This document shows positions 16,187 through 40,380 of a DNA stretch of 43,146 bases, one piece after another. Position numbers and translations under genes: made by a program. The stretch comes from a virus: positions 1 to 43,146 of IMG/VR virus record IMGVR_UViG_3300009481_003440. The stretch is one strand, 5' to 3'. The notes below the pieces were generated by a model that had not been told where the DNA came from, did no database searches, and saw only the letters and a program-made list of their open reading frames with translations. How positions within the stretch are numbered: position 1 is the first letter of the stretch; every line of letters begins with the position of its first letter.

Positions 16187-16256
16187 TTCTAATGACCTCC
16201 ATATGATAAAATCATACTTTTTCCTAGTAGTCCTAAAATATATACTCCTGAATCTA

Positions 16257-16274
16257 TATATTATACCCCAAAAG
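16257..16274 (-). promoter_or_regulatory. Promoter-like element, copy 1 (GGGGTATAATATA)
   Basis: The minus strand has CTTTTGGGGTATAATATA about 70 bases before the 222-residue gene. The same 18 bases occur before the first large paralogue (20005-20022). It contains a perfect TATAAT but has GGG instead of the TGn extension seen at other promoters in the window, and no good -35 box. It may be read by the phage sigma factor. Confidence 0.6.
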
Positions 16275-16303
16275 GAATATTTTTCTTCAAGTATCGCTCC
16301 GGA

Positions 16304-21136: not shown

Positions 21137-21746
21137 ACGATCTCCTTAGCTTTTTAACGGCTCTGTCTATAATACTATACACAAATTTATCGGTTCTATT
21201 AAGTTCTTGTGAGATTTCTTTTACATTCATATGATCTAAAAACCTCTTTTCAATACACTGTTTTTCCATGGTAGATAGAGAAGATCCTTCTAATAAAGAC
21301 CTGATTTCTGAGCGATCTTCCGTGTTTTTAGTGTCAGAAAACGAAAGGTCTCTGGTATCTTCTAGAATCTCATATAATTGTATCAGATTTTCGTCGTCAT
21401 TCAGGTCTTTGTTGACAGAAAGTAGGTTTCTTGTCTTAGATAATCTTGACATCCAGTTTTGTATAGCCCAAATTGCACATTGGTTGTGGTAGCTACGAAG
21501 TGTTCTTCCTCTTTCAGCAGACCACCTGCATGTAGCATACATCAAGTGTTCTGCGACAAAAGATATAGCATCCTCGCTTCTTAGCATCTGAATCTTTAGG
21601 TCTCGGTTAGCAAAGTGAGCTATACACCTCTCTGCTATCTTCAGATACTCATCCATGCCAAACATTCTAGCAACTGATTCTTTGTTGTTAAAAGTCCCGT
21701 TATCCTTTAGTTTTTTCGGGTCAATGTCTTTAATAATTAATTTCAT
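21120..21746 (-). CDS. Sigma-70-family sigma factor, probable late-transcription factor
   Basis: A 208-residue sigma factor. A region-2-like helix set (SEDAISFVAEHLMYATCRWS, then RSYHNQCAIWAIQNWM) is followed by an acidic linker and a region-4 helix-turn-helix (LSTMEKQCIEKRFL, then VKEISQELNRTDKFVYSIID). The compact size and lack of regions 1 and 3 match phage late sigma factors (T4 gp55-like) and ECF sigma factors. It would direct host RNA polymerase to phage promoters, perhaps the GGGGTATAATATA elements downstream. It overlaps the glycosyltransferase gene before it by 17 bases. Confidence 0.8.
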   Translation of the reverse strand: MKLIIKDIDPKKLKDNGTFNNKESVARMFGMDEYLKIAERCIAHFANRDLKIQMLRSEDAISFVAEHLMYATCRWSAERGRTLRSYHNQCAIWAIQNWMSRLSKTRNLLSVNKDLNDDENLIQLYEILEDTRDLSFSDTKNTEDRSEIRSLLEGSSLSTMEKQCIEKRFLDHMNVKEISQELNRTDKFVYSIIDRAVKKLRRSYGTQG

Positions 21747-22689
21747 TTAAAGTTTCCTTAATCTTATTTTTCCAATAGGTTAAATCCAATTTATCGTAGT
21801 TCCACTCGGTCTTAGACTTTATTTCATGATATTTTTCCTGTAAAAAATCAAAGTTCAACTCGCCTACATCCTCAATCTCAAGAATAGGAAGGTCTCTAAA
21901 AAACGAGGAGGTAGAACTTTTTTCCAATATTGGTATTGATCCTAAATATAACGCTTCCCAAGTTCTGTAGCAATCGACACCATTTCCGTTAGGGCTTAAT
22001 GTAAATTTGTGCTGAGCAATGTCTTTTAGATACTGGTCTAACGGTTTAGATGCTGATGGGACAAAAGTCATCCAATCTTTAAACTGTTCTTGTTTGCTAT
22101 CCAGATATCCCTTTATAAAAAACCTGTCTAGGGTATATGTTTGAAAGTTGACATACAACCACCCCGGCTTATTGCTTGGTATTTCAGTGTTTTTAATTTC
22201 GCTTTCAACGCCGGGATGCATACCAAATGGTAGGCATGTTATCTTTGGGTGGCTTGTCATGGCGTTGCTCAAAAACCAATGGGTAATATTAGCTGGTATA
22301 TAATCAAAGGTAAGGATAGTGTGGCTGTCGCATTTAACAGAGTATCTGTCATTTATATTGCACCTCTCTAATACACATCTAGGAGGTATGACCAAGGGTT
22401 TGTCATTAAACTCTCTAAAGTCTATTACTGAGCCGTCCATATGAAGGAGGCTTTCAACCCACTTTCTCATATCTTTCCATATCGGATGTTCTTCCTGATG
22501 GGCAAGTCCGTAGTCTGTCTTTGCGGTTACGACCACATACTTATTATTTGTCTTCTTGCATATCTCTATAAATTCATATAAAGACTCCATATGAACAAAT
22601 ATAAGTCCTGACTCAGGCGGGGTTGGGTCTTTGGGGTCAAATGCCCTAGGGCATAAATCTCTGTATTTCTCACATGAAAGATATTCCAT
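21730..22689 (-). CDS. Exostosin-like (GT47-type) glycosyltransferase
   Basis: A 319-residue protein. The segment HKFTLSPNGNGVDCYRTWEA followed by LYLGSIPILE is the nucleotide-sugar-binding signature of exostosin-like transferases (GT47 and related). The N-terminal half is the acceptor-binding Rossmann-like domain. There is no signal peptide or membrane segment, so it acts in the cytoplasm. The ATG shares a base with the upstream GT4 stop. It is the last of the glycosyltransferase run and directly precedes the sigma factor. Confidence 0.85.
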   Translation of the reverse strand: MEYLSCEKYRDLCPRAFDPKDPTPPESGLIFVHMESLYEFIEICKKTNNKYVVVTAKTDYGLAHQEEHPIWKDMRKWVESLLHMDGSVIDFREFNDKPLVIPPRCVLERCNINDRYSVKCDSHTILTFDYIPANITHWFLSNAMTSHPKITCLPFGMHPGVESEIKNTEIPSNKPGWLYVNFQTYTLDRFFIKGYLDSKQEQFKDWMTFVPSASKPLDQYLKDIAQHKFTLSPNGNGVDCYRTWEALYLGSIPILEKSSTSSFFRDLPILEIEDVGELNFDFLQEKYHEIKSKTEWNYDKLDLTYWKNKIKETLNEINY

Positions 22690-23762
22690 TACACACCAAC
22701 CTCCTCTATAGCGTTTATCATTTTACTTACTGTATTGTCCCAAGTAAGTATGTTTGCTGTCTCGATACCATTTTTATTCACGATGGAAGATCCATTCTTC
22801 TTGCTTTCATAAACGCTTCTCATATGTTCCGCACACTCTTCGACCTGTTCGTCTCCGATGGATGCCCATTTTCCTTGCCCCTTAAACCATATACCATCAA
22901 AGGCCTCTTCTTGTTCTTTTGGGGTTACTAATAATGAGTTCTTCATGTTGCAGAATTCTGTGTGGGCTGTACAGTTGGTAATAATGACCTGTTTTCCGCA
23001 AGCCATTAACTCTAGGGCTTCTAGGTTCCATCCTTCAGCCCTAGACATAAACACTCCACAATCAACTCTTCTCATAATATCGGCAACGTGATCGTGATTC
23101 TCCACTCTTTCTATAAAAAATATCTTGTCTCCCATCTTTGAGTTTTTGTATAGCCTCATCCATTCCTGCTCTTCTTCTTTGGAGATAAATGGGTTGTGGT
23201 TCATCATTAGAAGCTCAACGTCATCCTGCACGTCAAATGCTTTGTTAAAGGCCTTGACTAGCACATCGTGACCCTTTCTTATTTCCCACTTCCCTACATT
23301 GATAAACCTTGTCGATTGCCATGGATCATGCGGTTCTTTCGGGAAAAACGTGTCTGTATCCACCCCAAGAGGAACAACAAAAGATTTCTTGTCGTGGTTT
23401 GATATGACCCCTTTAGCCCAATGAGAACAGACAAACACAATATCTTGAGAGTGAATATGATGGACTTCTCTGTCTGTCAGTCTATCAAGTTCAAAGATAG
23501 GAAACCCACAACGAAGGCCATCTCCAACGTGTTGAGCTAGATCGTGTTGGTGCCAGATACGAATACTTGGCGATTGAAAATCGTAGAACGATTGATTGTT
23601 AACACACTGCTGAAATAATTGGGCATCACTAGTAGCGGGTGTTACTGGCCCGATAGGAAAAAAAGACACCTCATGTCCCTGAGTAACCAAGGCTTTAAGG
23701 ACGTTAGTTCCAACGACGCCGTATCCCAGTGGGTTCACTGGGGCTGTTAAGTTTATATCCAT
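22689..23762 (-). CDS. GT4-family glycosyltransferase
   Basis: A 357-residue GT-B enzyme. The C-terminal domain has FINVGKWEIRKGHDVLVKAF and the E-x7-E motif in AEGWNLEALELMACG, typical of retaining GT4 transferases. I start it at the ATG at 23762, which has GGAGG 6 bases upstream; the open extension to 23807 runs through the promoter and is rejected. A strong promoter lies directly before it, so it leads a unit with the exostosin-like gene and the sigma factor. Confidence 0.9.
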   Translation of the reverse strand: MDINLTAPVNPLGYGVVGTNVLKALVTQGHEVSFFPIGPVTPATSDAQLFQQCVNNQSFYDFQSPSIRIWHQHDLAQHVGDGLRCGFPIFELDRLTDREVHHIHSQDIVFVCSHWAKGVISNHDKKSFVVPLGVDTDTFFPKEPHDPWQSTRFINVGKWEIRKGHDVLVKAFNKAFDVQDDVELLMMNHNPFISKEEEQEWMRLYKNSKMGDKIFFIERVENHDHVADIMRRVDCGVFMSRAEGWNLEALELMACGKQVIITNCTAHTEFCNMKNSLLVTPKEQEEAFDGIWFKGQGKWASIGDEQVEECAEHMRSVYESKKNGSSIVNKNGIETANILTWDNTVSKMINAIEEVGV

Positions 23763-23779
23763 GTTATCCTCCGCTATAT

Positions 23780-23807
23780 AGTATAGCAGATGTGTCCTTG
23801 TTGTCAA
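23780..23807 (-). promoter_or_regulatory. Strong sigma-70-type promoter before the GT4 gene
   Basis: Minus strand: TTGACA, 16 bases, then TATACT preceded by TGC (extended -10). Predicted transcription start is about 10 bases before the ATG, leaving just the GGAGG site in the leader. It is the best promoter in the window. Confidence 0.85.
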
Positions 23808-23852
23808 GACCTTTTTAGCATTTTCTTCAAACTGAAGAGTATTTTATTGTCC

Positions 23853-24086
23853 TCAGCGGCGTCTTTTGGGCTTACGTATTGCTTGTGTCGGTTTCTTTGC
23901 TTTGTGGACGTTTCGGCCAAGCCTCCCTATTCTTTCGGGTTTCTGACCCTTGACACTCCTGTCCCACTGGCTGTAGCAGAAAGAGGCTCTCGACCTGCTG
24001 TCACTGAAGGTTTCGATGGACTCCTTGGATGACATGCATCTATAAATAAAATCGTTTCTTTTCTCACCTTGGTTTGGCGACGGCAT
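23853..24086 (-). CDS. Small phage protein with RCM...CYSQW motif
   Basis: A 77-residue protein. The N-terminal half, RNDFIYRCM ... RASFCYSQWD, matches a short motif (DFI-x-RC-x(n)-C-x3-W) that recurs at the ends of phage portal, protease and capsid proteins and in small stand-alone phage proteins. The tail is very basic (RKPKRRR). It has AGGAG before the ATG. The function is unknown; a virion-linked role is possible. Confidence 0.7.
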   Translation of the reverse strand: MPSPNQGEKRNDFIYRCMSSKESIETFSDSRSRASFCYSQWDRSVKGQKPERIGRLGRNVHKAKKPTQAIRKPKRRR

Positions 24087-24095
24087 ATATTGCTC

Positions 24096-24380
24096 CTATT
24101 CTAGTCTTTTAATATCAAAGACAATTCTCATTCTTTCTATAAACTTAATGCTTCTTTTCTGATGCTTTGCTTCGAGGTAGGCTAAGGTAGGACAATCCTT
24201 AAGAAGCCTGTATATCACATTGAGATCCTTTGCCTCTTCCATGTCTCCGTCTAGAATAAGTTCAGCTATGATTAACTCTAGGTCATCTACAAAATTTCTT
24301 TGACCTTGGCAATGGGGACAACTCATAAAGGAATCTTTGTGGTGGTAAACCCCGCTGTCTCCGCAAAACGAGCACAACAT
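24096..24380 (-). CDS. Small zinc-ribbon protein
   Basis: A 94-residue protein starting MLCSFCGDSGVYHHKDSFMS and continuing CPHCQGQ. The two Cys-x2-Cys pairs, each followed by a glycine, form a DnaJ-type zinc knuckle. The rest is helical (ELIIAELILDGDMEEA) with a basic end. It lies 9 bases before the next small gene. The partner is unknown. Confidence 0.7.
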   Translation of the reverse strand: MLCSFCGDSGVYHHKDSFMSCPHCQGQRNFVDDLELIIAELILDGDMEEAKDLNVIYRLLKDCPTLAYLEAKHQKRSIKFIERMRIVFDIKRLE

Positions 24381-24420
24381 TTTTATTCTCCAGTAATTAG
24401 GTATATACTACAATACACCA

Positions 24421-24813
24421 TTAGTAGTCCCTGTATACTAGCATCGTTATCGGGTAATAGTTGTCTCTGACTTTGATCTGAGTGTTTTTTGTTGCCTCTT
24501 TTGCTGCTTCTATATATTTTTCCTGAATCTTATCTGTGACAATAAGAAGAATAGCAGGAGCTTTGTCGGTACATCTAGCATAGTGACAGGACTGCCCCAC
24601 AGCCTCGTACCACTTCTTTGCAAAATCTACCTCAATTGCTAGGGTGTCGGTCAATATATCGACTCTGGTGGCGTCTGGGAGCCTGTATTCGACCTTTCCT
24701 TGGAGTATTTGATTACAGTGTAGTTGATAGTCACGCTCTGTTCTTAATCCCCCCTCTTGGAGGGGTAACATCTCTGGTTGTTTTTTGAACCAGTTAAGTA
24801 TTGTTTTGATCAT
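24421..24813 (-). CDS. Putative PD-(D/E)XK nuclease-like protein
   Basis: A 130-residue protein. RLPDATRVDILTDTLAIEVD followed by FAKKWYEAVGQ has the Asp, Glu and Lys order of a small restriction-like nuclease. The N-terminal hydrophobic stretch (MIKTILNWF) may be a weak signal or just a helix. Similar proteins of unknown role are found in bacteria. I use the ATG at 24813; one at 24828 would start inside the predicted promoter region (TATAAT at 24831-24836). Confidence 0.55.
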   Translation of the reverse strand: MIKTILNWFKKQPEMLPLQEGGLRTERDYQLHCNQILQGKVEYRLPDATRVDILTDTLAIEVDFAKKWYEAVGQSCHYARCTDKAPAILLIVTDKIQEKYIEAAKEATKNTQIKVRDNYYPITMLVYRDY

Positions 24814-24843
24814 AAACCGCCCAATCATAGATTATATCCATAG

Positions 24844-26238
24844 TTATATTAAATATACAGAAACATTTGAACAAATGTTGTCCCAAGACTTTACAGCTTC
24901 TGCTTTTTCATTGGTGGTGATTACTGTTGTAATTGGGCCAATACCATCGAAATCAATGACTTGGTATCCGTCCGGTATAGTCCATTTATTTCTTTGCTTC
25001 TTGTGTTCTGTGTCGTGGGCTACTATTATGTCGGAGCCTGTTAGTGCGGCATTAACCTGCTCTCCTCTCGTGTCTCCGTGACCGTCAACGAAAATCATGT
25101 CAAACTTTTCATTCTCAAATATCCCCAGACTATGGTGTATTGCTGGGGATGATCCTATTAACTGCTTATGGCTCCAGATATCTTTAGTTGATTTATTAGA
25201 AAGTTCTTTTACGGCATATTCATACCAACTCAAGTTTTTGCGGCGATGATTATTCATTTCTACCGAAACAACCTTATCGCACTTATCTAAAAATAATTTG
25301 GTAGAGTACGTGCCTATGCCGTACTCGAAAACAGATTTTATACTAAAAGTTTCTATTATTTTTTGCAATATTGGAAGATGGCTGGAGGTTGTTGTTAACA
25401 AAGGTTCTTGTGTCAACCCCAAATCTAAATCCTTGCATTCAGCGGCGGGCCTAATCTTATGTGCCCAGCTATGACCCTCTCCCGGTCTAACAGGAAAACA
25501 ATCTAAATAATACCCATCAGATCTCTTAGAGTTATCTTTGTTCCACCAGTCTTGTTTGGGCCAGTTGGATCTATCTATTCTGTCTGCGATAGAATAAACC
25601 AAGTTGCTGGGACGCGGTATGTGGACAACCATTGCCTCCTTCTTTTCGCTTTTTATCAATGATGAAAGCAGAGATTCGTCTGAAAAATTCGATGGGGGGT
25701 TGCAGGGATTTTCGTTGTTCCTGTATAAATTTCTCTTCCAACTTTCTACCAAGTCTGTATATGAAAGATCTTCTGGGTTTATAATTTCTTTTATTATATT
25801 TCCACGACCAAAAGTAAAATACATAGGCCATTTATTTTCGTCTTTAGATCCTGCATATACATTCGCACCGATAGCCCCTATTTTGTCTGGTTCTCCTTTG
25901 TTAATCAGATCTTTTAGCTTATCTTCATTTATAATCCATTGATCTATATCCATCAACATAAAATAGCAATTCATGTTTGATGCCATATACATTCTGGTTA
26001 TCTTCGCTTGGTTTCCAGTGGGAACATCCGGTATCGAATCAAAAATAACAATTTCACCACCTACTTTTTTAAGGTCATGAATAATTTGATTGTCTTTTTT
26101 TAATCCTTCAGTGATATAGCCAAGGTGAACATCTAATCCAAGCTTATGTTTTATATTATTGTATGTATATCTGTAGAACGAATAGTATCTAGAGTTACTG
26201 TTCGTAGTTAATATTATATTTTTAATTTTACTAAACAT
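24844..26238 (-). CDS. Fusion: GT-A-like glycosyltransferase plus SAM methyltransferase
   Basis: A 464-residue two-domain enzyme. Residues ~1-260 look like a GT-A fold with the metal-binding Asp-x-Asp (FMLMDIDQW) and a later GYYLDCFPVRPGEGHSWAHK segment. Residues ~285-460 form a class I methyltransferase-like domain: SVFEYGIGTYSTKLFL (SAM-binding loop), VVSVEMNN, FDMIFVDGHG, DIIVAHDTEH. It would add and methylate a sugar, or act as two linked activities. It overlaps the next gene by 8 bases. Confidence 0.75.
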   Translation of the reverse strand: MFSKIKNIILTTNSNSRYYSFYRYTYNNIKHKLGLDVHLGYITEGLKKDNQIIHDLKKVGGEIVIFDSIPDVPTGNQAKITRMYMASNMNCYFMLMDIDQWIINEDKLKDLINKGEPDKIGAIGANVYAGSKDENKWPMYFTFGRGNIIKEIINPEDLSYTDLVESWKRNLYRNNENPCNPPSNFSDESLLSSLIKSEKKEAMVVHIPRPSNLVYSIADRIDRSNWPKQDWWNKDNSKRSDGYYLDCFPVRPGEGHSWAHKIRPAAECKDLDLGLTQEPLLTTTSSHLPILQKIIETFSIKSVFEYGIGTYSTKLFLDKCDKVVSVEMNNHRRKNLSWYEYAVKELSNKSTKDIWSHKQLIGSSPAIHHSLGIFENEKFDMIFVDGHGDTRGEQVNAALTGSDIIVAHDTEHKKQRNKWTIPDGYQVIDFDGIGPITTVITTNEKAEAVKSWDNICSNVSVYLI

Positions 26239-27085
26239 AACTAAGTATTTTTTTTGCTCTTTCTAGATAGGTGTGTTTTTTAGAAAGGGCTAGTCCATTA
26301 CTGCCTATGCGGTTTAACTCTTCCTCATTGTCTTGATATTGAGCAATCATGTCGCCAACATCGTGAGGGATAATGGATGCATACTTATCATCATAAACTA
26401 GGCAGTTTTCTTTATCAATAAACCCAAGAGCCTCTAGCTGGTCGTTCCAGTTGGTTAGGAGGACTGTGCCACACCCGATGGTTTCAAAATGTCGGTAGTT
26501 AAAGTCATATGAGTGATTTCTATTCATGTGAATATGGTAGGAGTTAATGGCCTCTACCATATCGTCGCCAATAACGAATATGTCTAATTTTACATCGTAA
26601 CGCAATGATAGTATATTAACAATATTTGTTCTATTTCCCATGTTTCCGCAAAATCCAACAAAATGCTCTTTCTTGACGTTTGGCATGGGTTTGATGAGTG
26701 TATCATCAAATGCGTTGGGGAGCCATCTGTGATAGTCTTTTTCTACATATTTTCTGGTAGAATGGAAAAGAATGTCGTATTTTCCTTGGTGAAAAATATT
26801 TTCATAGGGATCTATGCCCCTGCAATGAGCATCAATACTCCAAAGAAACTTTTTAGGGTGTCGATAGGAGGATAGATCTGGCAGCCATTGTGTATTGTAT
26901 TGTTCTAGATTAAAAATCAAATCAAAAGAATTGAAGTCTACTTCTGAACCCCATCCCTCGTGCCCCATTCCCCACACCTCACACACACAACCAAGAGACT
27001 CGAACGCCCTTTCTAGGGAGAAGCACTCTCTGTATTTTCTGTTTCTGTCGTGCTTACCATTTTCTTGTATTATTAATATTTTCAT
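26231..27085 (-). CDS. CgeB-like glycosyltransferase
   Basis: A 284-residue GT-B-type protein. KILIIQENGKHDRNRKYREC begins the N-terminal domain. The C-terminal part (FGVN-like start HFVGFCGNMGNR, then YRHFETIGCGTVLLTNW and ENCLVYDD) is the signature of CgeB/Glyco_trans_1_2 transferases. It lacks an obvious E-x7-E motif, as is usual in that group. Sugar and acceptor are unknown. It lies 1 base from its upstream neighbour. Confidence 0.8.
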   Translation of the reverse strand: MKILIIQENGKHDRNRKYRECFSLERAFESLGCVCEVWGMGHEGWGSEVDFNSFDLIFNLEQYNTQWLPDLSSYRHPKKFLWSIDAHCRGIDPYENIFHQGKYDILFHSTRKYVEKDYHRWLPNAFDDTLIKPMPNVKKEHFVGFCGNMGNRTNIVNILSLRYDVKLDIFVIGDDMVEAINSYHIHMNRNHSYDFNYRHFETIGCGTVLLTNWNDQLEALGFIDKENCLVYDDKYASIIPHDVGDMIAQYQDNEEELNRIGSNGLALSKKHTYLERAKKILSYV

Positions 27086-27086
27086 G

Positions 27087-28466
27087 CTAGTAACTTAAAC
27101 ACCTCTCTATTTGTTCTGGTGAAAAATCAGGCCAATTATAAGGCATCCCAACAAATTCGTTTTCAATTCTATCCGTGGGGAACACCGACCAGAATTCATC
27201 GTTCAAAATTGCTTGCTCGTTACCTACATGTAACATTATTGACTCCTTTTTATTGTAGTCGGGCCACAATACGTTGCACAGAAAGTCCTGATCAGCACCG
27301 CGTTCCGACCCTATCCTACCTTGCCGAAAATAATTCTCAATGGCTTGTTTTATTTTTTTGTTCCTGCCTTTGATTCCCCACATACCCCCCAAAATCTTCA
27401 CATCGTGCCATTTGTGATCTCTCATCACATGCAGTGCTTTATCAGAAGAAAGCCATTCGTTTACTGCGTGCTTTTCTCTCCATAAAATTGGGCTATCAGC
27501 ATCTCTAAAAATAGTTACGTCTCCGTCTTCACAAGCATAAAACCTCCAAAACATCGACATTTCATCTTCGGGCAAGCCCTCCATTCTTATTGTCTTGCAT
27601 CCCTTGGATTTCAATTCATCTTCAATGCTTTTAGGAATAGAATCTCCCAAATAAAACCTGAACTCCCAATCGGGATACTTTTTTAGACCACTGTTTACCG
27701 CTTTAATGGCTCCGTCGTGATAAAAGGGATTTTCTCCATATAGGGAAAAGGAAACAATCTTCTTAGGTTTTGTGCTGTGTTTATAGCTTCTGTCTTCATC
27801 CAAACAGAAGTTGTTAGTTAGCTTTTCCGATGGAATACCCATAATATTTCTTTGTATTCTATGGAATGTGCTTTCTTCCTCATTGTAGTATATTTTTTTG
27901 CACTTAAATAAAGTCATCCAATCAGCAACCGCTCCAACACAATGGGCTTTCTCTCTTACTATGTTAAACCCTTCTGCCACCTTGCCATCGTCCTCATACC
28001 TAGGAACCTGATTTACTATTACTTTACTGCTCAACCTGTCTGCAAGAATATGGCTATCCGTAGCAAGAAATACATTTTCATATTCCGACAAGTGTTCGAC
28101 AGCAGAAATCCAGCGGGCATAATCCGATTCCCTGCCCCATGAATGGTGCATTCTTATGTGTACCCCAACGCAATCTTCTGGGATATCTGACATCAAGTTT
28201 TGTACTTGCGTGGATGGTTTTAGCGATTCAATGAATGGTTTAGAAATTCTAGCCGCATGTATATTATTAACATCATGCCACGCCCCCGATTTGTCGGAGC
28301 AATACACTATATTTAATCCGGCGTCTTGAAATATATCATGCCACTTGCAGTCAAAATGCCAGTCCGACCATCTAACGGTAATGTTGTCCGTTGTGCCGCA
28401 GTCGTGGATTGCGTTTACAATATTAGAAATCCTATTTCCTATCCCTCCATATACAACGCTAATCAT
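27087..28466 (-). CDS. Fusion: O-fucosyltransferase-like plus GT-A-like domain
   Basis: A 459-residue protein with two parts. Residues ~1-235: GGIGNRISNIVNAI, WHDIF, and CVGVHIRMHHSWGRESD, the donor-binding order of NodZ/FUT8-type fucosyltransferases. Residues ~245-459: KKIVSFSLYGENPFYHDGAI and the Asp-x-Asp in VTIFRDADSPILWRE, which is GT-A-like. The start at 28466 overlaps the upstream stop by 8 bases; an extension to 28505 is less likely. The first half has the same plan as the complete 253-residue protein at 31486-32247. Confidence 0.75.
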   Translation of the reverse strand: MISVVYGGIGNRISNIVNAIHDCGTTDNITVRWSDWHFDCKWHDIFQDAGLNIVYCSDKSGAWHDVNNIHAARISKPFIESLKPSTQVQNLMSDIPEDCVGVHIRMHHSWGRESDYARWISAVEHLSEYENVFLATDSHILADRLSSKVIVNQVPRYEDDGKVAEGFNIVREKAHCVGAVADWMTLFKCKKIYYNEEESTFHRIQRNIMGIPSEKLTNNFCLDEDRSYKHSTKPKKIVSFSLYGENPFYHDGAIKAVNSGLKKYPDWEFRFYLGDSIPKSIEDELKSKGCKTIRMEGLPEDEMSMFWRFYACEDGDVTIFRDADSPILWREKHAVNEWLSSDKALHVMRDHKWHDVKILGGMWGIKGRNKKIKQAIENYFRQGRIGSERGADQDFLCNVLWPDYNKKESIMLHVGNEQAILNDEFWSVFPTDRIENEFVGMPYNWPDFSPEQIERCLSY

Positions 28467-29940
28467 TATGATAGACACCCTGAGAAACCGTTTCTTTGGA
28501 GACATAATAAAAATCTTCTTCCTTGCCCAACAAGTAAGAATCGCCTATAAACTTAACGGTGGATCTGCATTTAAAAAATTCATCACACGCTGGTTTGCAT
28601 CCCACCCATAATTTGCTTGGGTGTATAAAGTCGTCAAACACAATTATGCCACCGTCCGACATGTTCTTGTGAGTTTTTTCTAGCATATCTAGGGTTGATT
28701 GATACAGGTCTCCATCGGACAACGCAAAACATATCTTATCGGGGATGTTATTTTTAGGTATATCTTTAAAAAACCCTTTGGTAACTGCTGGCATTTTGAT
28801 GTGATGGTTATTGATGTTGTCGGTAAAGTCATCTAATGAACAAGACATTTCTCCTTTTTGAGGACATTCACCGTTACTTCTTTTGTCGTGTTTTTTGTCT
28901 GAGTCTGGCAATCCCTCGAAAGAATCATATACATATATCTTTTTGTCTGAGTTGTTCAAATCAAGCAACCTTTGCATGGCAACTGTGGTGTTTCCACGAA
29001 AGCACCCAAATTCCACTATATCTCCTTCTACTTTGTTGTCTAGGACATGTTGAAGATATGTCAATACCACCTTATGTTCATTGTACGACATCATGTGGTC
29101 TATAGTGTCGCCCATTTGGTTATGATTAGTGTAGACGTGAGCGTAATTGGAGAAATACTGTTTTACTAAATCTCTTTTTTGTATATCTTTCTTTTTCAAC
29201 CTACTAAGAAAAGCATCAATATAATGTTGTGGCATAAAGCTTGGATCAACAACCTTATAATCTTCACCAAACCTTTCTAGCCTATGCCTGTCTGGGCTTG
29301 CCTTATGCCCTATCATATCGTGCACATGAACATGGCACAGTTTGGGCTCATAGAATACTTCCTCGCCCTTGTCGTGATTTACAGAACAATCTATTGTGTG
29401 GTTTACCTTATGATGATGGAGGGAATGATACCAAGCCTCATCTGTTGTTCTCCATACCCTAATGTGTGGATCATGCATGATGCCTCGCATGGAGGATACG
29501 TCGATCATGTGTATCGAGGGGGAAATAAAGTGATAGCAACTAAGGCTAACAACCTTTTCTATATTTTCACGTATCATGTGATCAAGTATCTCGCCCAGCA
29601 ATGGAGTGTAAAATTCATCTGAATCACACTGGATTAAAAACTCATTACCAAACTCTCTTGCCCAAGCAATACACTCATTTCTGCATTTAACCTCATCAAA
29701 ACCCCCGTCTTCTACAGACCTATCAAATCCGTGGCCATAGCTCTGCCACCTCTCTGTTACTTTGGGAAAATACTTTTCTGTAAGATCGCCCATCTGACTC
29801 GGCTTTTCGTCGTCTGTGTAGACGATAAGTATATCTGTCACCCAATCATACGCAGACATAGTTTTTACCGACAGATCTAAATAAAAGAAGTCTGAGCTGT
29901 GGGTAATATACCACACTGTTGACTTTGTACTATGAACCAT
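28459..29940 (-). CDS. Fusion: GT-A-like glycosyltransferase plus TylF/MycF-type O-methyltransferase
   Basis: A 493-residue enzyme. Residues ~1-260: a GT-A-like domain (TVWYITHSSDFFYLDLS, FLIQCDSDEFYTPLL with the Asp-x-Asp). Residues ~285-480: a macrocin O-methyltransferase-like domain, GDIVEFGCFRGNTTVAM (SAM loop), KIYVYDSFEGLPDSD, FFKDIPKN and GGIIVFDDFIHP. The TylF/MycF family methylates sugar hydroxyls, so the protein probably adds a sugar and methylates it or its neighbour. It overlaps both neighbours by 8-11 bases. Confidence 0.8.
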   Translation of the reverse strand: MVHSTKSTVWYITHSSDFFYLDLSVKTMSAYDWVTDILIVYTDDEKPSQMGDLTEKYFPKVTERWQSYGHGFDRSVEDGGFDEVKCRNECIAWAREFGNEFLIQCDSDEFYTPLLGEILDHMIRENIEKVVSLSCYHFISPSIHMIDVSSMRGIMHDPHIRVWRTTDEAWYHSLHHHKVNHTIDCSVNHDKGEEVFYEPKLCHVHVHDMIGHKASPDRHRLERFGEDYKVVDPSFMPQHYIDAFLSRLKKKDIQKRDLVKQYFSNYAHVYTNHNQMGDTIDHMMSYNEHKVVLTYLQHVLDNKVEGDIVEFGCFRGNTTVAMQRLLDLNNSDKKIYVYDSFEGLPDSDKKHDKRSNGECPQKGEMSCSLDDFTDNINNHHIKMPAVTKGFFKDIPKNNIPDKICFALSDGDLYQSTLDMLEKTHKNMSDGGIIVFDDFIHPSKLWVGCKPACDEFFKCRSTVKFIGDSYLLGKEEDFYYVSKETVSQGVYHND

Positions 29941-31489
29941 CTCTATCCCTCATAACATCATAGAATTTATGTATATTAAAGTTAATATTTCTATTTTTGT
30001 CTTCACACCAGTCTAGATAGTTATATAAAACAACGAGGTTGGGATTCATGAATATATTCCCCCCCCTTTGTATTATATCTAAATGAAAGGGTACATGTTC
30101 AGAAGCTTCCCCAGTATATGTAGAATTAATTACATCACCTATCTTGTATATAGCCATTCCACCAAAAGCAGAATTCACCTTTACCCAAGGATCTCCTCTG
30201 CCTGAAGTAGCATATTTACCATGATAACCCTTCATTCTTCCTCCGTGTGTACCCATCCCATGCCCAAGATCTCTGTGGGCAAATGTGTCCCAATATACAT
30301 GGTTGCCTCTTCTTGAGTTTTTCCCGTTAGCGGCAACTCCAGACCACAAAAATTCAGACCCGATAGTATTAGCTACTCCATCATAACTAAAGCCTCCGGT
30401 CAAGTCCATATCAATTAAAATATAATAATCATAATCTAAAAACTTTTCCCTAACCTTATCTAAGCATTTGTTTCTGTACTCAGCCATCCTAACCACCCTT
30501 TGTTGACCCATGCCACCAAGACGTTCCCTATCTAGCTTCTCGGTTGTAAGAGATATCCTTTCGGGGTCTTTCATCTGCCAGCTTTCAAGATAGTCAACTG
30601 TTTCGTCTTCTGAGTCGTTTTCATAAACTATGAAGGCATGGTCTTTAAACAGGGAGGCAAGGTGATTGAATCTTGCTTCTCCTGTGGCTCTCCAATGTCC
30701 AGCTATACCTCTAGCCAACCCGCATATAACAGCTCTGGACTCGGACATCTTCTTATAACCGGCTTCAACCGCCCTTGTGTAGTATGGAAGATCGCAGTGG
30801 TACTTATCTTCTGGAAACATGTGGCAGAATTTTGAAATGAGAGTCTCTGAGTCTTTTTTTGTTTCTGGGTAAAAGTTCTCTATTTTTTCGGCGTCATGAT
30901 ACACACAAACATCTGTGCTCAAATACACAAACTTATAGTCATTAAAGAATAATCTTAGGGTAAGGTCTTGTACAGAAGAGTTTATGCTGTCGTAAGAATC
31001 ATCGAGCCCTCCGATTTTTGACCACATCGACCTTGGTATACATGGAACCTGCAACGACGCTATTCCTATCGGGGTATAGCTAAACCTTTTATCTTTGGAT
31101 GATTCGTCTGTTAGTATAGAAACAGCCAGACATGAGTCTGGGTTTTGTGATGCTACTGACGCTATGTTTTGTAGCATGGAGGTGTGAAATTCCCCGTTCA
31201 CTAAAAATAAAATATGATTAGAAGATCCTTGGTCACAAAGAAAGTTTATCGTTTTTATTTCGCTTTCTTTGGGCTTGTAGAAGTTTATCTCTTTGAAGTT
31301 CCAGTGGGGCGAAGATTTAATGAAGTCTACGGCAGACTCCGGGCCCGAAAAGTATAAGTTAATTTCGTTGGAGATATTTGACGCTAGATTAAGCGTTTGG
31401 AGAGACTGTTGGTGTGAGCCGTTGTTGGACAGGAGGCAAACGTCTATAGATTCAGCTGGATTATTTTCTTTAGAAAATTCTATCTTCAT
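29930..31489 (-). CDS. Two-domain glycosyltransferase, C-terminal CAP59/GT69-like
   Basis: A 519-residue protein. The N-terminal ~230 residues resemble a GT2-type domain without a clear catalytic triad (DVCLLSNNGSHQQSLQTLNL, HILFLVNGEFH). The C-terminal part has FIVYENDSEDETVDYLESW and YYILIDMDLTGGF (Asp-x-Asp), then SGVAANGKNSR and NSAFGGMAIYKI. This order is that of the CAP59/CMT1 mannosyltransferase family (GT69), known from fungal capsules and also from bacterial and viral clusters. It is coupled to the next gene by an 11-base overlap. Confidence 0.78.
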   Translation of the reverse strand: MKIEFSKENNPAESIDVCLLSNNGSHQQSLQTLNLASNISNEINLYFSGPESAVDFIKSSPHWNFKEINFYKPKESEIKTINFLCDQGSSNHILFLVNGEFHTSMLQNIASVASQNPDSCLAVSILTDESSKDKRFSYTPIGIASLQVPCIPRSMWSKIGGLDDSYDSINSSVQDLTLRLFFNDYKFVYLSTDVCVYHDAEKIENFYPETKKDSETLISKFCHMFPEDKYHCDLPYYTRAVEAGYKKMSESRAVICGLARGIAGHWRATGEARFNHLASLFKDHAFIVYENDSEDETVDYLESWQMKDPERISLTTEKLDRERLGGMGQQRVVRMAEYRNKCLDKVREKFLDYDYYILIDMDLTGGFSYDGVANTIGSEFLWSGVAANGKNSRRGNHVYWDTFAHRDLGHGMGTHGGRMKGYHGKYATSGRGDPWVKVNSAFGGMAIYKIGDVINSTYTGEASEHVPFHLDIIQRGGNIFMNPNLVVLYNYLDWCEDKNRNINFNIHKFYDVMRDRDGS

Positions 31490-32247
31490 ATCAGAATAGT
31501 CTCTCTTTTGGTTGTGTTTAGCATCTGTGCCATCTGAGAGAAGCTACTATTTAAAGTGCCCACCATTTCTTGACACATAGAAAGAAGGCAGAAATCAGCG
31601 AGAGCCTCTTTCATTCCATCCACAGTTCTGTTTTTGTTTTTCTGCTCAAGATAAATCAATCTATCTCCATACATTTTAAATTCATCTAGATCACTAGGTG
31701 TGTCTACACAGACAAACACCTTGGAATTTGTGTAGGTATCTATGAACTCTTCTATCTTAGCAAATGTTTTAGAAGGAAAGCCCCCATATGTTCTTCTGAC
31801 ATGAACGCCGATTGTGTTTCCAGTAAAATTCTGCATACACTGATCTATCTTTTCGTGTATGTCTGGAAGAGGCACCACTAATTTTTTAAGATATGGGTTG
31901 AGCAGCTCCTTGTGATTCCATCCGTTACAGAAGTAACCAGCACAGGCCTCAATCCATTTGTGGTCAGAATCTTTGATGTGGTCTACTTGCTTACCTTCAT
32001 ATCTCTTTAAAAGGCCTTCTCTGTGTAGCTGTTGATGGTCGTGCCCCTCATAGCACCTATCTTCATCGCCCAGAAAGACAGCCATGTTTGTTTGAAAAAG
32101 ATCGTGCCAATGAGCATCGCAACCCCTTCCCGGAATCCACCTTATCGCAAAGGATCTTCCCATTTCTTCCGCTGCCGCCCAAGCTGAGGCTGTTAGTTTA
32201 ATCCTGTCTCCTAGACCATTCTTTGGCCAAGCTATCAAGTGTTTCAT
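31486..32247 (-). CDS. O-fucosyltransferase (NodZ)-like protein
   Basis: A 253-residue protein starting MKHLIAWPKNGLGDRIKLTA, the loop that opens NodZ/FUT8-like transferases. HWHDLFQ follows, and NTIGVHVRRTYGG carries the donor-binding arginine motif. The end (EMVGTLNSSFSQMAQML) matches the last conserved block, which includes a Ser in a G-x-x-x-S-S-F context. The ATG overlaps the upstream stop as ATGA; the open 26-codon extension is rejected. The likely donor is a GDP-sugar. Confidence 0.78.
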   Translation of the reverse strand: MKHLIAWPKNGLGDRIKLTASAWAAAEEMGRSFAIRWIPGRGCDAHWHDLFQTNMAVFLGDEDRCYEGHDHQQLHREGLLKRYEGKQVDHIKDSDHKWIEACAGYFCNGWNHKELLNPYLKKLVVPLPDIHEKIDQCMQNFTGNTIGVHVRRTYGGFPSKTFAKIEEFIDTYTNSKVFVCVDTPSDLDEFKMYGDRLIYLEQKNKNRTVDGMKEALADFCLLSMCQEMVGTLNSSFSQMAQMLNTTKRETILI

Positions 32248-32990
32248 TTTAAATTTCTTATAGACTGTAAGAAGGTTTCCATTTTTTGCTGAGGTGTCTT
32301 TTTTGAGAAGAAAAATTCTTGACACTTTTTAACCATATTATTTCTAGCCTCTCTATGCCCCGGTCTCTTATGCAATGCTTCTGATGATGGTAGCTGTCTG
32401 GTGGGTAGTTTCATTTGAAGAGGTTTGTTCTTATACGCAAACAGGGAGGCGTAAGCCAAGAAGATGTCTTCTCCATTCATGTCTCCATGATAACCCCACT
32501 TATTCAGTTCAGAATAGCTTAGGTTATTTTTCCTGAAGAAAAGTCTTTCAGACTCAACCAAAAAACCAATGAGACCTTTTGGTACGGAAGCTAAACAAGT
32601 TAGGCATATATCCACTTCTCCGTAGCAATTTTTTAGACTATAATTTCCTTTTTCATCTAAATTTCTACCCCAAGCACAATATACCCTATGAGGGTTATTA
32701 CAAAAACTATTCCACATCGAATCAAAAGCCTGCGGCTCTGCTACTAGATCATCGTCTTGAAAGACAAGGCAGTCATTTGATGCCAGAAGACCGTTGGCCC
32801 ATCTCGTTCTTAAACCAAAGTCTGTATTGCAATTAACTATTTTTACTTTGTCGTGGCAATAAGATAGGGAAACCTCTCTGTTGTTATTAAATACTATTAT
32901 TTCACCGATTATAGAATATTCTTTTTGTCTTTCTATAATCTTATATATATTATCCGGTCTTTTCCAGCTATTTATTAAAAGGCTTATCAT
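32244..32990 (-). CDS. Exostosin GT64-like glycosyltransferase
   Basis: A 248-residue GT-A protein starting MISLLINSWKRPDNIYKI. IIVFNNNREVSL and NTDFGLRTRWANGLLASNDC followed by LVFQDDDLV (Asp-Asp-Asp) are the features of the GT64 (exostosin C-terminal) family. NGEDIFLAYASLFAY is the late conserved block. The upstream open reading is only the translated 3' end of the tmRNA, so this ATG is the start. There are just 9 bases between the tmRNA end and the ATG and no ribosome-binding site, so translation may depend on an uncleaved precursor. Confidence 0.85.
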   Translation of the reverse strand: MISLLINSWKRPDNIYKIIERQKEYSIIGEIIVFNNNREVSLSYCHDKVKIVNCNTDFGLRTRWANGLLASNDCLVFQDDDLVAEPQAFDSMWNSFCNNPHRVYCAWGRNLDEKGNYSLKNCYGEVDICLTCLASVPKGLIGFLVESERLFFRKNNLSYSELNKWGYHGDMNGEDIFLAYASLFAYKNKPLQMKLPTRQLPSSEALHKRPGHREARNNMVKKCQEFFFSKKTPQQKMETFLQSIRNLK

Positions 32991-32999
32991 TTTTATAAG

Positions 33000-33336
33000 T
33001 GGAGGCGGCGGGAATCGAACCCGCGTCCTGTAATATTTCCTTAACAACCTCTACATGGTTAGCAAATTGTATTCACACAAAAAGCAAAGTTATCCGAATT
33101 ATCGGAGTCATTGGTTGCCTACAACCATCGGAGATAGAAACGAGTACCTCCTCTCGTTCGAGTTATCGACTTCATCGTGATTGGATAAAAAGGCTCACGA
33201 AGCCCCCGCAGCTTAAGCTGCCAATGCTAAACTAGGTTCGGCAATTGAAAAATTTGGTCAACTTTTATAGTGGCCTGTTGACCAGCCACTCCATGCAGCC
33301 ATTAATTAGATACCCAGTCGATGCCATTTCGCCCCC
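33000..33336 (-). ncRNA. ssrA: tmRNA (transfer-messenger RNA)
   Basis: A complete one-piece tmRNA of 337 bases. The 5' end GGGGGCG pairs with 3' CGCCTCC (7 bp), including a G3-U pair, the identity element for alanyl-tRNA synthetase. The 3' part has the T arm GCGGGTTCGATTCCCGC, and the conserved GGCATCGACTGGG follows the 5' strand. Pseudoknot 1 is clear: GTGGC with GCCAC and TGGTCAAC with GTTGACCA. The tag begins with GCC after AATTTTTCAATT and reads AEPSLALAA, then TAA, ending in the LAA needed for degradation. CCA is not encoded (the sequence continues A-CTTATA), so the host must add it. Its function is rescue of stalled ribosomes and tagging. Confidence 0.97.
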
Positions 33337-34150: not shown

Positions 34151-34162
34151 GACCAAACCTCC

Positions 34163-37084: not shown

Positions 37085-38296
37085 TTAAAATAAACTCTTG
37101 ATGATTTTGCCAGAGTTGGCAATTTTCATTGGTCTACCGCTGTTGCTTGTGAATGTAGTCTGCAACGATATTCCTAACGCTTTGCATATAGACGCCATAA
37201 CGTCTTGTGATGAATACGGCTCAGTATCAACGCGGGTTCCGTCTTTGTTTGTCGATCCGATAGCAACCCCACCATTCATGCCTGCTCCCCCAACAACCAC
37301 GCTCCAACTACGAGCCCAATGATCACGACCGGCATTTCCGTTAATGCGAGGCGTTCTACTAAACTCTCCCATCCAAATAATTGCCGTGTCTTTAAGGAGG
37401 TCTTTTTCCTCTAAATCTTCAAAAAGAGCACTCATTCCCTGATCTAATATAGGTAGCTTTGTGTCTCTTAGGGTAGGGTGTATGTTCTGGTGGTTATCCC
37501 ACCCTCCTAGATTGACCTCGATGAATGGAACTCCTGCCTGAACTAACCTTCTCGCCATCAAACACCCTTTACCGAATCCACTATTTCCATATCTCTCTTT
37601 GATAGCTTCCGGTTCGTTGGCAATCTTGAAAGACTCCATCTCTGCGCTAGTAATAACATCATAGGCCTGCTTTAACACATCCCTATGATCTTTGGCTATT
37701 GAACCTCTTTTTTGGTTAATAAAATTATTCTCGATGAGATCTAGTGCATATGCTCGTTGTAAAAATCTGGCATCAGGCTTGATATCTAAATTTTTTACCC
37801 TTCCATCACTATTTACTACAAAAGGAGAATACTTCATTCCCAGAAACCCAGCCCCAATACTAGCCCCTCCAACAGAGACAAATTGTGGAATTGATAGATT
37901 GTCTCGCTTTAACTGGTGTGACAGTACGGCTCCATAGCTTGGGTGTTGCATATTGGGGTTTGGTACATACCCAGTGTGCATATAGTACCGACCCCTAGAA
38001 TGATCTGCTTCCCGTGTACTCATGCTTCGTATGATTGCTGCATTATGCATCTGTTTTGCCATTAGTGGCATATGTTCGCTAATTTGTACATCTCCAGAAG
38101 TGGAAATTGGACGAAAGGGACCTCCTGTCGGAGCATTTGGTTTAAGATCCCATATATCCATAGTTGAAGGGCCTCCTCCCATCCATAGGAGGATGGCGGA
38201 TTTCCCGTTTTTCTTTAGTTCTTGCTGATTAGCCTTAAGCGTCTGGGTTAGACCGAAAACACTAGCGGTAGTAGTTAAGAAATTTCTTCTATTCAT
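37085..38296 (-). CDS. DUF1501 family protein, twin-arginine exported
   Basis: A 403-residue protein of the DUF1501 family, which has an alkaline-phosphatase/sulfatase-like fold. The N-terminus MNRRNFLTTTASVFG is a Tat signal. Family features include ILLWMGGGPSTMDIWDLKP, MSTREADHSRGRYYMHTGY, GWDNHQNIHP and WMGEFSRTPRINGNAGRDHW. The length fits typical DUF1501 proteins (~400-480). These proteins are very abundant in Planctomycetota and unexpected in a phage. Cellular location is predicted to be the periplasm. It is not overlapping with its neighbours (12 bases after the aminotransferase). Host origin by transfer is likely. Confidence 0.9.
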   Translation of the reverse strand: MNRRNFLTTTASVFGLTQTLKANQQELKKNGKSAILLWMGGGPSTMDIWDLKPNAPTGGPFRPISTSGDVQISEHMPLMAKQMHNAAIIRSMSTREADHSRGRYYMHTGYVPNPNMQHPSYGAVLSHQLKRDNLSIPQFVSVGGASIGAGFLGMKYSPFVVNSDGRVKNLDIKPDARFLQRAYALDLIENNFINQKRGSIAKDHRDVLKQAYDVITSAEMESFKIANEPEAIKERYGNSGFGKGCLMARRLVQAGVPFIEVNLGGWDNHQNIHPTLRDTKLPILDQGMSALFEDLEEKDLLKDTAIIWMGEFSRTPRINGNAGRDHWARSWSVVVGGAGMNGGVAIGSTNKDGTRVDTEPYSSQDVMASICKALGISLQTTFTSNSGRPMKIANSGKIIKSLF

Positions 38297-38308: not shown

Positions 38309-39394
38309 CTAGTAGTTGTTAACGGCGTCTACAATGTGTTTTAAATCTTTTTCAGTTAGCCACCATCCACAAGGAATATTCATTAGCTTACTATCGAATG
38401 ACTCTAGCTTTGTCAATTCAGGATCTCTAAATTGTTTGAACACAGAATATCTTAAGTTGCTTGTGTGGCAAGCGTCAGATTGTATTCCAAGACTTTCCAT
38501 ATATCTTTTAAATTCCTTCTTATCATCAACTAAAACACTGTATATCCAATAAGAAGACACTCTATCTTCTCTTAGGCAAAGAGGCTTGACTCTATTGTTA
38601 TTAATGTTGTCTCTGAGAAAGTTACTGTTTGCTACGTGTTTATCAATAAGACCATCTATGTATTTTAATTGCAACAAGCCTATTGCTGCGTTCGTATTGT
38701 TCATATGAAATTTGAAGCCAGACTCAGTTATATCCTGTTCCCATTTGGAACCCTTGTACGTTCTGTCTAGACCAAACCATCTGATCTTTCTTATTCTCTC
38801 CGCATCTTCTTTAGACTTGCAGGCAATCGCCCCTCCATCTGCCGTTGTAAGATGCTTCACTGCTTGAAATGAGTAACAAATAAAGTCTCCATGATTTCCT
38901 ATAAGCTTTCCTTTGTATGAAGACCTGAGTGCATGAGCTGCGTCTTCTACGACCTTTATATTATATTCTTCTGCTATTGCTAATATTTCATCCATATCAC
39001 ACGGCTGACCAGCCCAGTGGACAACAACTATGGCTTTGGTTTTGTCTGTGATCTTATTCCTTATGCTCTGTGGGTCAATGTTTCCGGTTTCTATGTCTAT
39101 GTCTGCAAAAACAAGCTTTGCTCCACAGTTAAAGAATGGTTCATTGGTGGCCATGCAAGTCATGGCAGTGGATATAACCTCATCGCCTTCCTTGATTCCG
39201 ATTACTCTTGCTGCCAACACCAATGCATTTGTGCAGGAATTAACTAGGCATGTGTTGGGGTTCCCTATATACTCAGAGAACTCCTTTTCAAATCTGTCGG
39301 AATATTCTCCTTCTGTTATGAAACCAGAGCCCCAGACCTCTGACATCGCTTCCGCTACTCCGGGCGGTGTATGAACCTTCATTAACGGTATCAT
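38309..39394 (-). CDS. DegT/DnrJ/EryC1-type sugar aminotransferase
   Basis: A 361-residue PLP enzyme that would transaminate a keto-sugar nucleotide. YSFQAVKHLTTADGGAI contains the PLP lysine (K180). EDAAHALRSS supplies the Asp that binds the pyridine nitrogen. Start: MIPLMKVHTPPGVAEAM, with the ATG overlapping the dehydratase stop as ATGA; a longer reading is rejected. With the 4,6-dehydratase-like neighbour it gives the usual two steps to a 3- or 4-amino-deoxy sugar. Confidence 0.9.
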   Translation of the reverse strand: MIPLMKVHTPPGVAEAMSEVWGSGFITEGEYSDRFEKEFSEYIGNPNTCLVNSCTNALVLAARVIGIKEGDEVISTAMTCMATNEPFFNCGAKLVFADIDIETGNIDPQSIRNKITDKTKAIVVVHWAGQPCDMDEILAIAEEYNIKVVEDAAHALRSSYKGKLIGNHGDFICYSFQAVKHLTTADGGAIACKSKEDAERIRKIRWFGLDRTYKGSKWEQDITESGFKFHMNNTNAAIGLLQLKYIDGLIDKHVANSNFLRDNINNNRVKPLCLREDRVSSYWIYSVLVDDKKEFKRYMESLGIQSDACHTSNLRYSVFKQFRDPELTKLESFDSKLMNIPCGWWLTEKDLKHIVDAVNNY

Positions 39395-40380
39395 TCTTCT
39401 AGCCACTCCTGATGTTGAATTGTCCATTGTATTGTTTTCCTTAGAGCATCTTCAAAATTAACGGGAAGCTTCCATCCTAAGCTATCCATTTTATCGCCAG
39501 ATAAAGCGTATCTTAAATCGTGTCCGGGTCTTTTAGTGTGGAAGTCAACCATTTTATATTTTAATGGTTTTCCTATTTCTTGGGCAATAAACTTGGCCAT
39601 TTCTAAATTGTCTACCTCTTTTTCACCAACCACATTATACTTTTCTCCAATATCACCTTTTTCTATTAAAAATAAAATAGCGTGCGCTATATTTCTTGCG
39701 TGGATATAGAACCTACTACCCGCTCTTTTCTTATCGGGATAAGAATGTATTAATACCTCTCGGTCGTGAATGACATTCTTTATCGTCATGGGTATGAATT
39801 TTTCTACATGCTGTCTTTCCCCAAAAGCATTCATTACATTGATGCTCATTATCGGCATCTTGTATGTGTTTTCATAAGCTACACATATTTGCTCTGCCGC
39901 TGACTTGCTTGCTGAGTATGGATTAGTAGGCTTATGTCTGTCCCATTCACCATAAGCGGTTCCATCGGGAGCATCCCCATAAACTTCGTCTGTACTGAAG
40001 TAAAAAAAGTTTTCCAAATTATTGAGACCTCTTGCATACTCAAGCATCTCTACTGTGCCATTGATGTTGTTTTGAAAAAATTCTCTAGGGCGAGAGATAC
40101 TATTGTCTACGTGAGACTCTGCCGCCATATGAATAACAATATTTACATCACCAAGCTCTCTGGCAATTCCTTCGCTTAATTTATAAGAGATGTCGGTAGT
40201 GTAGACACCCACCCTTTGGTTTGATAATGCCCCAAACGATCTAAGGCGATCAAACCCCATACTGGCGTAGTTTAACTTGTCTATAACCGACACTTCCCAG
40301 TCGGTCTTTCTTAAAATATGTTCTACTACATGATGCCCTATAAAACCACACCCTCCAGTAATCAGCACTTTTTTGCTCAT
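39391..40380 (-). CDS. NAD-dependent sugar 4,6-dehydratase (RmlB-like)
   Basis: A 329-residue extended SDR enzyme. GGCGFIG at 9-15 binds NAD; HMAAESHVDNS is the RmlB-type loop; the catalytic STDEVYGD gives Thr-Asp-Glu (130-132), and YSASK gives Tyr155/Lys159. Together these identify a dTDP-glucose (or other NDP-hexose) 4,6-dehydratase, which makes the 4-keto-6-deoxy intermediate. It overlaps both neighbours by 4 bases. Confidence 0.92.
   Translation of the reverse strand: MSKKVLITGGCGFIGHHVVEHILRKTDWEVSVIDKLNYASMGFDRLRSFGALSNQRVGVYTTDISYKLSEGIARELGDVNIVIHMAAESHVDNSISRPREFFQNNINGTVEMLEYARGLNNLENFFYFSTDEVYGDAPDGTAYGEWDRHKPTNPYSASKSAAEQICVAYENTYKMPIMSINVMNAFGERQHVEKFIPMTIKNVIHDREVLIHSYPDKKRAGSRFYIHARNIAHAILFLIEKGDIGEKYNVVGEKEVDNLEMAKFIAQEIGKPLKYKMVDFHTKRPGHDLRYALSGDKMDSLGWKLPVNFEDALRKTIQWTIQHQEWLEE

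Follow-up and report, generated by a model that had tools for sequence, protein, structure and literature searches.

The capsid N-glycan machinery of the chlorovirus PBCV-1 (A064R, A061L, A075L, A111/114R) combines soluble and multi-domain glycosyltransferases (GTs) with GT-methyltransferase fusions, methylated sugars and a fucose-linked branch (PMC9614988). Within this set, A075L is the capsid-glycan beta-xylosyltransferase, whose donor and acceptor residues are known (PMC11571054). Among the cyanophages, P-SSM2 carries 24 glycan genes in two clusters (PMC2984593) and S-SCSM1 a large set (PMC9602691), and glycans on the capsid and tail tube of mycobacteriophages have been reported (Freeman et al. 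2023, as cited in PMC12619734). Here we analyze a glycan gene cluster at positions 21730-32990 of the IMG/VR record IMGVR_UViG_3300009481_003440, a 43146-base virus record that is a linear fragment of phage origin and is referred to over its whole length as the window. The explanation that we rank first, and hold with about even confidence, is that this accessory island directs synthesis of a methylated oligosaccharide that is assembled on a virion surface protein in a chlorovirus-like manner.

The cluster encodes nine glycan proteins, all on the minus strand and with open reading frames, in which family matches and motif reading identify eleven GT and two methyltransferase domains. Such an accumulation within 11 kb is not chance. 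Seven of the genes overlap or abut from 32990 down to 24844 and, to judge by this spacing, form one tight operon, as would be expected of a single transcription unit. They are followed by two small minus-strand genes, one for a CxxC-containing protein whose sequence holds no glycan domain (24096..24380) and one for a protein with Pfam matches only at E > 0.06 (24421..24828), and then by a 288-bp gap and a GT4/GT114 pair. An original prediction had described eight consecutive glycan enzymes, five of them with two domains or a double function. The run is real and co-oriented, but it comprises nine proteins and is not strictly consecutive because the two small genes without a glycan domain and the gap interrupt it. 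Two-domain architecture was found in four proteins: GT-A plus methyltransferase (24844..26238), fucosyltransferase-like plus GT-A (27087..28505), GT-A plus TylF (28459..29940) and GT2-like plus GT69-like (29930..31489). Genes are named below by their lower coordinate.

The gene at 21730..22689 (minus strand) encodes a GT114-like glycosyltransferase homologous to PBCV-1 A075L (PDB 8q8i/8avq/8asa, E 5e-24), rather than the GT47-like protein of the original prediction. The match, obtained with phmmer, covers the C-terminal domain (residues 133-312). Equivalents of Asn202, Gly203, Arg208 and Glu211 are kept, with GNGVDCYRTWE aligned to GNGIDTHRLWE (A075L numbering, which is offset by +2 in the PDB chain). 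An Arg is present near the position of Arg158, where the alignment is gapped, and His183 aligns with Leu217 and is not kept. As to Asp73, the catalytic base of A075L, the N-terminal domain lies outside the significant alignment and the relatives show no invariant Asp. Homologues of the GT114 type are also encoded in other phage contigs.

A second point of contact with PBCV-1 is the 27087 protein (minus strand). The AF2 model of its C-terminal half (pLDDT 86.6) was matched by Foldseek to glycogenin (E 3e-7) and to PBCV-1 A064R-D1 (E 2e-6), the latter among the top PDB matches. R95, D96 and D98 of its RDxD motif (RDAD) are invariant in 21 sequences, and homologues are present in 17 viral loci. 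According to the model, the C-terminal half has a GT-A fold with a DxD motif. The N-terminal half is fucosyltransferase-like by motif only (GIGNR, HIR), so that the combination named in the original prediction is upheld by a model for one half and by motifs for the other.

The neighboring gene (26231..27085, minus strand) encodes a CgeB-type GT-B glycosyltransferase (Glyco_trans_1_2, PF13524, 62 bits). A search for this family, which was pattern-based and not exhaustive, returned 50 viral loci and a single contig of the bacterial/archaeal collection, a 3-kb contig of a metagenome-assembled genome (MAG); the family is thus almost exclusively viral. After removal of near-duplicates, 34 viral loci remained. 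A 27087-type GT-A lies within the fetched flank in 20 of them, and in all 20 it is located upstream of the CgeB-type gene on the same strand. Immediate adjacency of the two was seen four times versus 1.4 expected, which is modestly above random. The constant upstream order is the stronger signal, with the caveat that the loci lack phylogenetic independence. Eight of the 34 loci also hold a 24844-type GT-A and six a GT114 type, and one (L166) shows all three in the order of the window. Several of the loci have T4-like neighbors, as judged from sequence. The cultured Synechococcus phage S-SRM01 (Kyanoviridae) carries a 27087-type GT-A in a cluster with fucosyltransferases, GTs, an FkbM methyltransferase and a GDP-fucose synthase. 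The same gene order in other phages, proposed as a check in the original prediction, was found for the core families.

The remaining GTs are documented to different degrees. The GT4 glycosyltransferase (22689..23807, minus strand; 62.9 bits) has an EX7E motif, shows ~50% identity to counterparts in related phages and adjoins DUF1501 genes in the lineage by synteny. Pfam cut-offs are exceeded by this protein (Glyco_trans_1_4), by the CgeB-type protein, by 21730 (RXYLT1_C), by 28459 (TylF and Methyltransf_24) and by the product of the first operon gene (32244..32990, minus strand), a GT2/GT64-like GT-A glycosyltransferase with a DDD motif (Glycos_transf_2, 24.2 bits, cut-off 23.3). Weaker matches below cut-off are GT64 for the same protein (16.4 bits), NodZ and GT11 for 31486 and CAP59 for 29930. 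Hence the GT4 and CgeB-like members of the original prediction hold, while its CAP59-, NodZ- and GT64-like members have profile matches that are present but weak. The 31486 protein (31486..32247, minus strand) is a fucosyltransferase-like GT-B of the NodZ/GT11 type with GLGDR, HVRR and SSFS motifs and a PDB match to NodZ at E 0.013; its likely start is the ATG at 32247, not the GTG at 32325. The 29930 protein (minus strand) has a GT2-like N-terminal domain (Glyco_tranf_2_4, below cut-off) and a GT69/CAP59-like C-terminal domain with a DMD motif (CAP59, E 4.7e-4). For 24844 and 27087 Pfam returned no match, PDB sequence searches with 24844, 27087, 29930 and 32244 returned nothing, and single-protein scans of viral contigs with 28459, 29930 and 18151 found no relatives.

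In a motif scan nearly all catalytic motifs were present across the cluster. Missing motifs had been named as what would speak against active enzymes, and only the N-terminal domain of 29930 falls under this: it has no DxD and is possibly inactive. Taken together, we regard the domain calls as strong for the GT4, CgeB-type, TylF and GT114 domains and the GT-A half of 27087. They are moderate for the GT2 domain of 32244, the GT-A and methyltransferase of 24844 and the NodZ-like 31486, where a weak profile is accompanied by good motifs, and weak for the fucosyltransferase-like half of 27087 and both halves of 29930.

Two of the proteins couple a GT-A domain to a methyltransferase. In 28459 (minus strand; GT-A motif CDSD) the C-terminal half is, by profile (TylF 96.1 bits, cut-off 23) and alignment, a TylF-type sugar O-methyltransferase. 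It aligns with NovP (E 3.6e-16) and MycF (E 7e-11) at the S-adenosylmethionine (SAM) loop VEFG 309, at DGD 409 and at DDF 436, and the metal ligands are intact. In 24844 (minus strand) a GT-A domain with a DID motif precedes a putative class I SAM methyltransferase (EYGIG). This assignment is drawn from motifs and from phage-encoded homologues of the GT-A half, among which Asp99 of the DxD motif is invariant; an alignment-free AlphaFold model of 24844 (pLDDT 34) was not used. A homologous GT-A is fused to a methyltransferase in locus L181 (Pfam Methyltransf_24, E 8e-7) and is followed immediately by a methyltransferase gene in L166, which supports a pairing that is shared with other phages. 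Profiles, motifs and this recurrence bear out both GT-methyltransferase proteins of the original prediction, and with nearly complete motifs and aligned TylF ligands they argue for the predicted capacity to make a long methylated oligosaccharide.

To judge by its replication genes, its DUF1501 relatives and the TerL-type matches in those relatives, the window is a fragment of an uncultivated tailed phage. Its left part encodes the first portion of a DNA polymerase III-like PHP protein, a PD-(D/E)XK nuclease, a deoxynucleotide monophosphate (dNMP) kinase (1858-2646), a primase, a DnaB-type helicase, a UvsX-like recombinase and both ribonucleotide reductase subunits. The right part encodes a DUF1501 protein (37085..38296, minus strand; Pfam 335.8 bits) that serves as a lineage marker. 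A search with it identified 74 other viral contigs, mostly at 70-82% identity, but no counterpart among the named phages of the searched collection. Contigs sharing DUF1501 have NrdB at ~89%, NrdA at ~75% and replication genes at ~45% identity, and five of the longest relatives have TerL-type matches of ~660-700 aa. The kind of relatives found suggests that the phage is probably marine. As a separate observation, the DUF1501 proteins carry a twin-arginine-like N-terminus, and a single phage of the lineage can encode as many as four of them, diverged from one another (L013, L024, L044, L069, L072).

In the relatives the GT4 gene lies ~0.3-3.2 kb after DUF1501. Small genes that are shared come next, together with relatives of 20009 and 15518. 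In the window the DUF1501-GT4 interval is ~13 kb and is filled by two matrixins, a tmRNA and the glycan operon. On the basis of this spacing, the glycan region is an accessory island whose insertion site, bounded by the lineage-conserved DUF1501 and GT4 genes, is variable. Family searches of 32 related contigs gave GT4-type matches in all 32, GT2-type matches in 25 and TylF in two. A recurrent glycan module follows DNA polymerase III in L093, L095, L098, L100 and L109, further islands lie beside fibre-like genes in L094, L097 and L099 (the label fibre-like being judged from sequence, with no PHROG match), and roughly four glycan islands were counted in the part of one 180-kb relative that was read (L106-L109). 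The glycan assignments in relatives come largely from sequence reading and family searches.

The glycan genes of the window extend beyond the cluster. Three minus-strand genes between 38309 and 42201 encode a DegT/PseC/WecE-like sugar-nucleotide aminotransferase (38309..39427; Pfam 299.9 bits; NCBIfam PseC 237.5 bits), a dTDP-glucose 4,6-dehydratase-like (RmlB-like) protein (39391..40380; TIGR01181 276.8 bits, cut-off 365) and a PseH-like GNAT acetyltransferase that possibly acts on an amino sugar (41695..42201; PseH 63.5 bits, cut-off 93). Together they would probably suit an N-acetylated 4-amino-4,6-dideoxyhexose; since all three score below their equivalog cut-offs, the exact donor sugar is conjectural. 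Separately, the product of 42182-42841 resembles 2OG-Fe(II) oxygenases of the 'sporadic carbohydrate cluster' family (46.5 bits, cut-off 150) and has a relative in L067 at 47% identity. Another relative encodes a NeuB-family protein (L112:2941-3768, 214 bits), which suggests phage synthesis of nonulosonic (sialic-type) acid.

From these genes we infer activities, donors and an order of addition as follows. The soluble GTs of the island would act in succession in the cytoplasm of the infected cell, using host nucleotide sugars and probably the acetylated aminodideoxyhexose. The two fused methyltransferases would methylate sugars during their addition, and the fucosyltransferase-like and A075L-like enzymes would add side residues. 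The product would be a single branched oligosaccharide carried by a soluble acceptor, for which a virion surface protein is the likeliest candidate. As in chlorovirus capsid glycosylation, the virus would make its glycan autonomously, and this glycan would differ from one related phage to the next.

The cluster proteins show no convincing membrane segment, the highest hydropathy (1.63) lying inside the GT core of 32244. Flippase (PF01943) and priming transferase (PF02397) were each found in none of the 32 related contigs, with positive controls, and neither was recognized among the window proteins scanned with Pfam. To judge by these families, the locus is not a Wzx/Wzy-type surface polysaccharide cluster, and a soluble acceptor is favored. 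The original prediction of assembly without a lipid-linked polymerase pathway is thus sustained. Assembly on the virion is further supported by the A075L homology, the A064R-D1 fold match and the intact TylF ligands, as well as by the proximity of glycan genes to fibre-like genes in some relatives and the recurrence of the core families across the 34 loci. Two sets of proteins encoded near the GT4 gene are candidates for the acceptor: 15518-16186, which is kept in relatives, and the paralogues at 16304-19965. The latter (16304-18151 and 18151-19965) are adjacent cysteine-rich proteins of ~600 aa with N-termini resembling that of 15518-16186; neither had a match in PHROGs or the related loci, and the first also had none in Pfam.

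Several points weigh against a glycan on the particle. The match of 27087 to A064R-D1 (TM about 0.5) is generic to GT-A folds, and the weak profile scores do not fix sugar specificities. The acceptor is one that we infer, and none was identified; the genes at 15518-19965, which look structural, gave no match to any family. In addition, the core of host lipopolysaccharide (LPS) can be lengthened by soluble GTs with export by the host, without a phage flippase. This leads to the explanation ranked second, a serious rival although we hold it to be less likely, namely that during infection the enzymes work on intermediates of host LPS, lipooligosaccharide or capsule, extending or capping them for export by the host, so that superinfection or grazing is blocked. 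LPS synthesis typically involves GT2, GT4 and fucosyltransferase families, the high variability among relatives fits diversification of a surface antigen, and remodelling of the envelope is the published reading of the P-SSM2 (PMC2984593) and S-SCSM1 (PMC9602691) clusters, whose genes were assigned to LPS or the cell wall. It has to accommodate, however, the lack of flippase and priming transferase in the 32 relatives, and GT114 and the A064R-D1-like fold, both of which are known from viral capsid glycans.

Glycosylation of modified bases to escape restriction, as performed by GTs of T4 and other phages, is improbable. The dNMP kinase at 1858-2646 would fit such hypermodification, but thymidylate synthase/dCMP hydroxymethylase (PF00303) was found in none of the 32 related contigs with positive controls, the window itself being only a fragment. 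T4-type DNA glucosylation is therefore unlikely, and modified DNA, an acceptor named in the original prediction, is not favored. A parallel search for PF12851 (0 of 32) is uninformative because its control was silent. To our knowledge, no base-modification pathway has as many enzymes as eleven GT domains plus two sugar methyltransferases would represent. About as improbable is that the enzymes make a methylated small molecule or modify a host cytoplasmic protein instead of building a structural glycan. NovP and MycF, the closest solved TylF relatives, do modify natural-product sugars, but no aglycone-building gene was identified, the number of GTs suggests a chain, and GT-A-methyltransferase fusions of other phages stand among sugar-nucleotide genes. 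Finally, a host genomic island or assembly chimera, which would fit a linear fragment whose cluster genes are mostly missing from the nearest relatives, is hardly credible given the phage-lineage genes on both sides, the uniform GC content along the contig, the almost exclusively viral CgeB-like family and the other clusters in the same region of relatives.

Immediately upstream of the operon lies a phage-encoded tmRNA (32997..33336, minus strand; ARAGORN; Rfam RF00023, 114 bits). The 32244 gene probably starts at 32990, where its start codon follows the tmRNA 3' end by 6-8 bases; a longer ORF from 33047 reads through that end. The tmRNA 3' end was considered as the mark of an integrated element and rejected, since phage-lineage genes are present on both sides. 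The tag is AEPSLALAA; some relatives have VENQVFALAA (L010), VEENFALAA (L029) and GETQLALAA (L064). Two matrixin (M10) metalloproteases, unusual for a phage, are encoded at 33518-34156, with a signal-like N-terminus, and at 34718-35290. A strong terminator-like hairpin on the minus strand (34196-34171; 10 pairs, 7 G-C, T tail) lies just upstream of the matrixin-tmRNA-glycan stretch. A nucleoside 2-deoxyribosyltransferase-like gene (35351-35911, weak Pfam match) is kept in L107 and L111, and a sigma-factor-like protein (21120-21746), with a relative in L107, is encoded directly after the GT114 gene. The records CAKLQH020000005.1 and CAKLQF020000005.1 bear the name Acinetobacter phage MD-2021a; chromosomal genes (secG, tpiA, recN, gspE, tRNAs) were seen in the part of the first that was inspected, and the match was discarded because this is probably a bacterial contig with a wrong phage label.

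If the glycan is located on the virion, phages would prove able to produce complex methylated coats like those of giant viruses, a capacity relevant to phage adsorption, to immune recognition and to the ecology of marine viruses. Since unrelated viral contigs share these enzyme families, many loci could be annotated from a single biochemical study. That neither a flippase nor a priming enzyme was found in the lineage calls for caution in labelling all such clusters LPS genes.

The locus resembles PBCV-1 in its A075L sequence homologue and in the A064R-D1 fold match. It differs in overall orthology, which is absent, and in its GT set: a PDB sequence search with seven cluster proteins recovered only the A075L relative of the chlorovirus core set, of which the PDB holds part. 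Moreover, PBCV-1 is a eukaryotic virus with dispersed genes, whereas here the genes form one phage operon. The cyanophages P-SSM2, S-SSM7, S-SCSM1 and S-SRM01 are likewise aquatic and have long runs of GTs, fucosyltransferases, NodZ-like enzymes, FkbM methyltransferases and sugar-nucleotide enzymes. They belong to another phage lineage, their enzymes are annotated mostly as single-domain, and they have FkbM where the window has TylF and a GT114 member. A mycobacteriophage likewise has a GT-methyltransferase fusion, in which the methyltransferase part shows 25% identity, but with dissimilar GT parts and two or three genes versus nine. Uncultivated loci such as L132, L166 and L181 have a CgeB-like gene, a 27087-type GT-A upstream and a 24844-type GT-A nearby. 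There the 27087-type GT-A is a separate single-domain gene lacking the fucosyltransferase fusion, and the flanks appear T4-like. In view of the P-SSM2, S-SCSM1 and S-SRM01 clusters and the fused mycobacteriophage enzyme, the original prediction went too far in regarding a phage-built methylated glycan of such complexity as new. This is not the first complex phage glycan cluster; its distinctive features are the fused enzymes, the GT114 member, the pair of sugar methyltransferases and a phage lineage in which glycan islands abound. We tentatively propose that a marine phage lineage may equip its particles with a large, branched, O-methylated glycan, made directly on them by soluble fused phage enzymes, as a bacterial-virus counterpart of autonomous chlorovirus and mimivirus glycosylation, sharing at least the GT114 family with an algal virus and exchanging glycan cassettes between unrelated phages.

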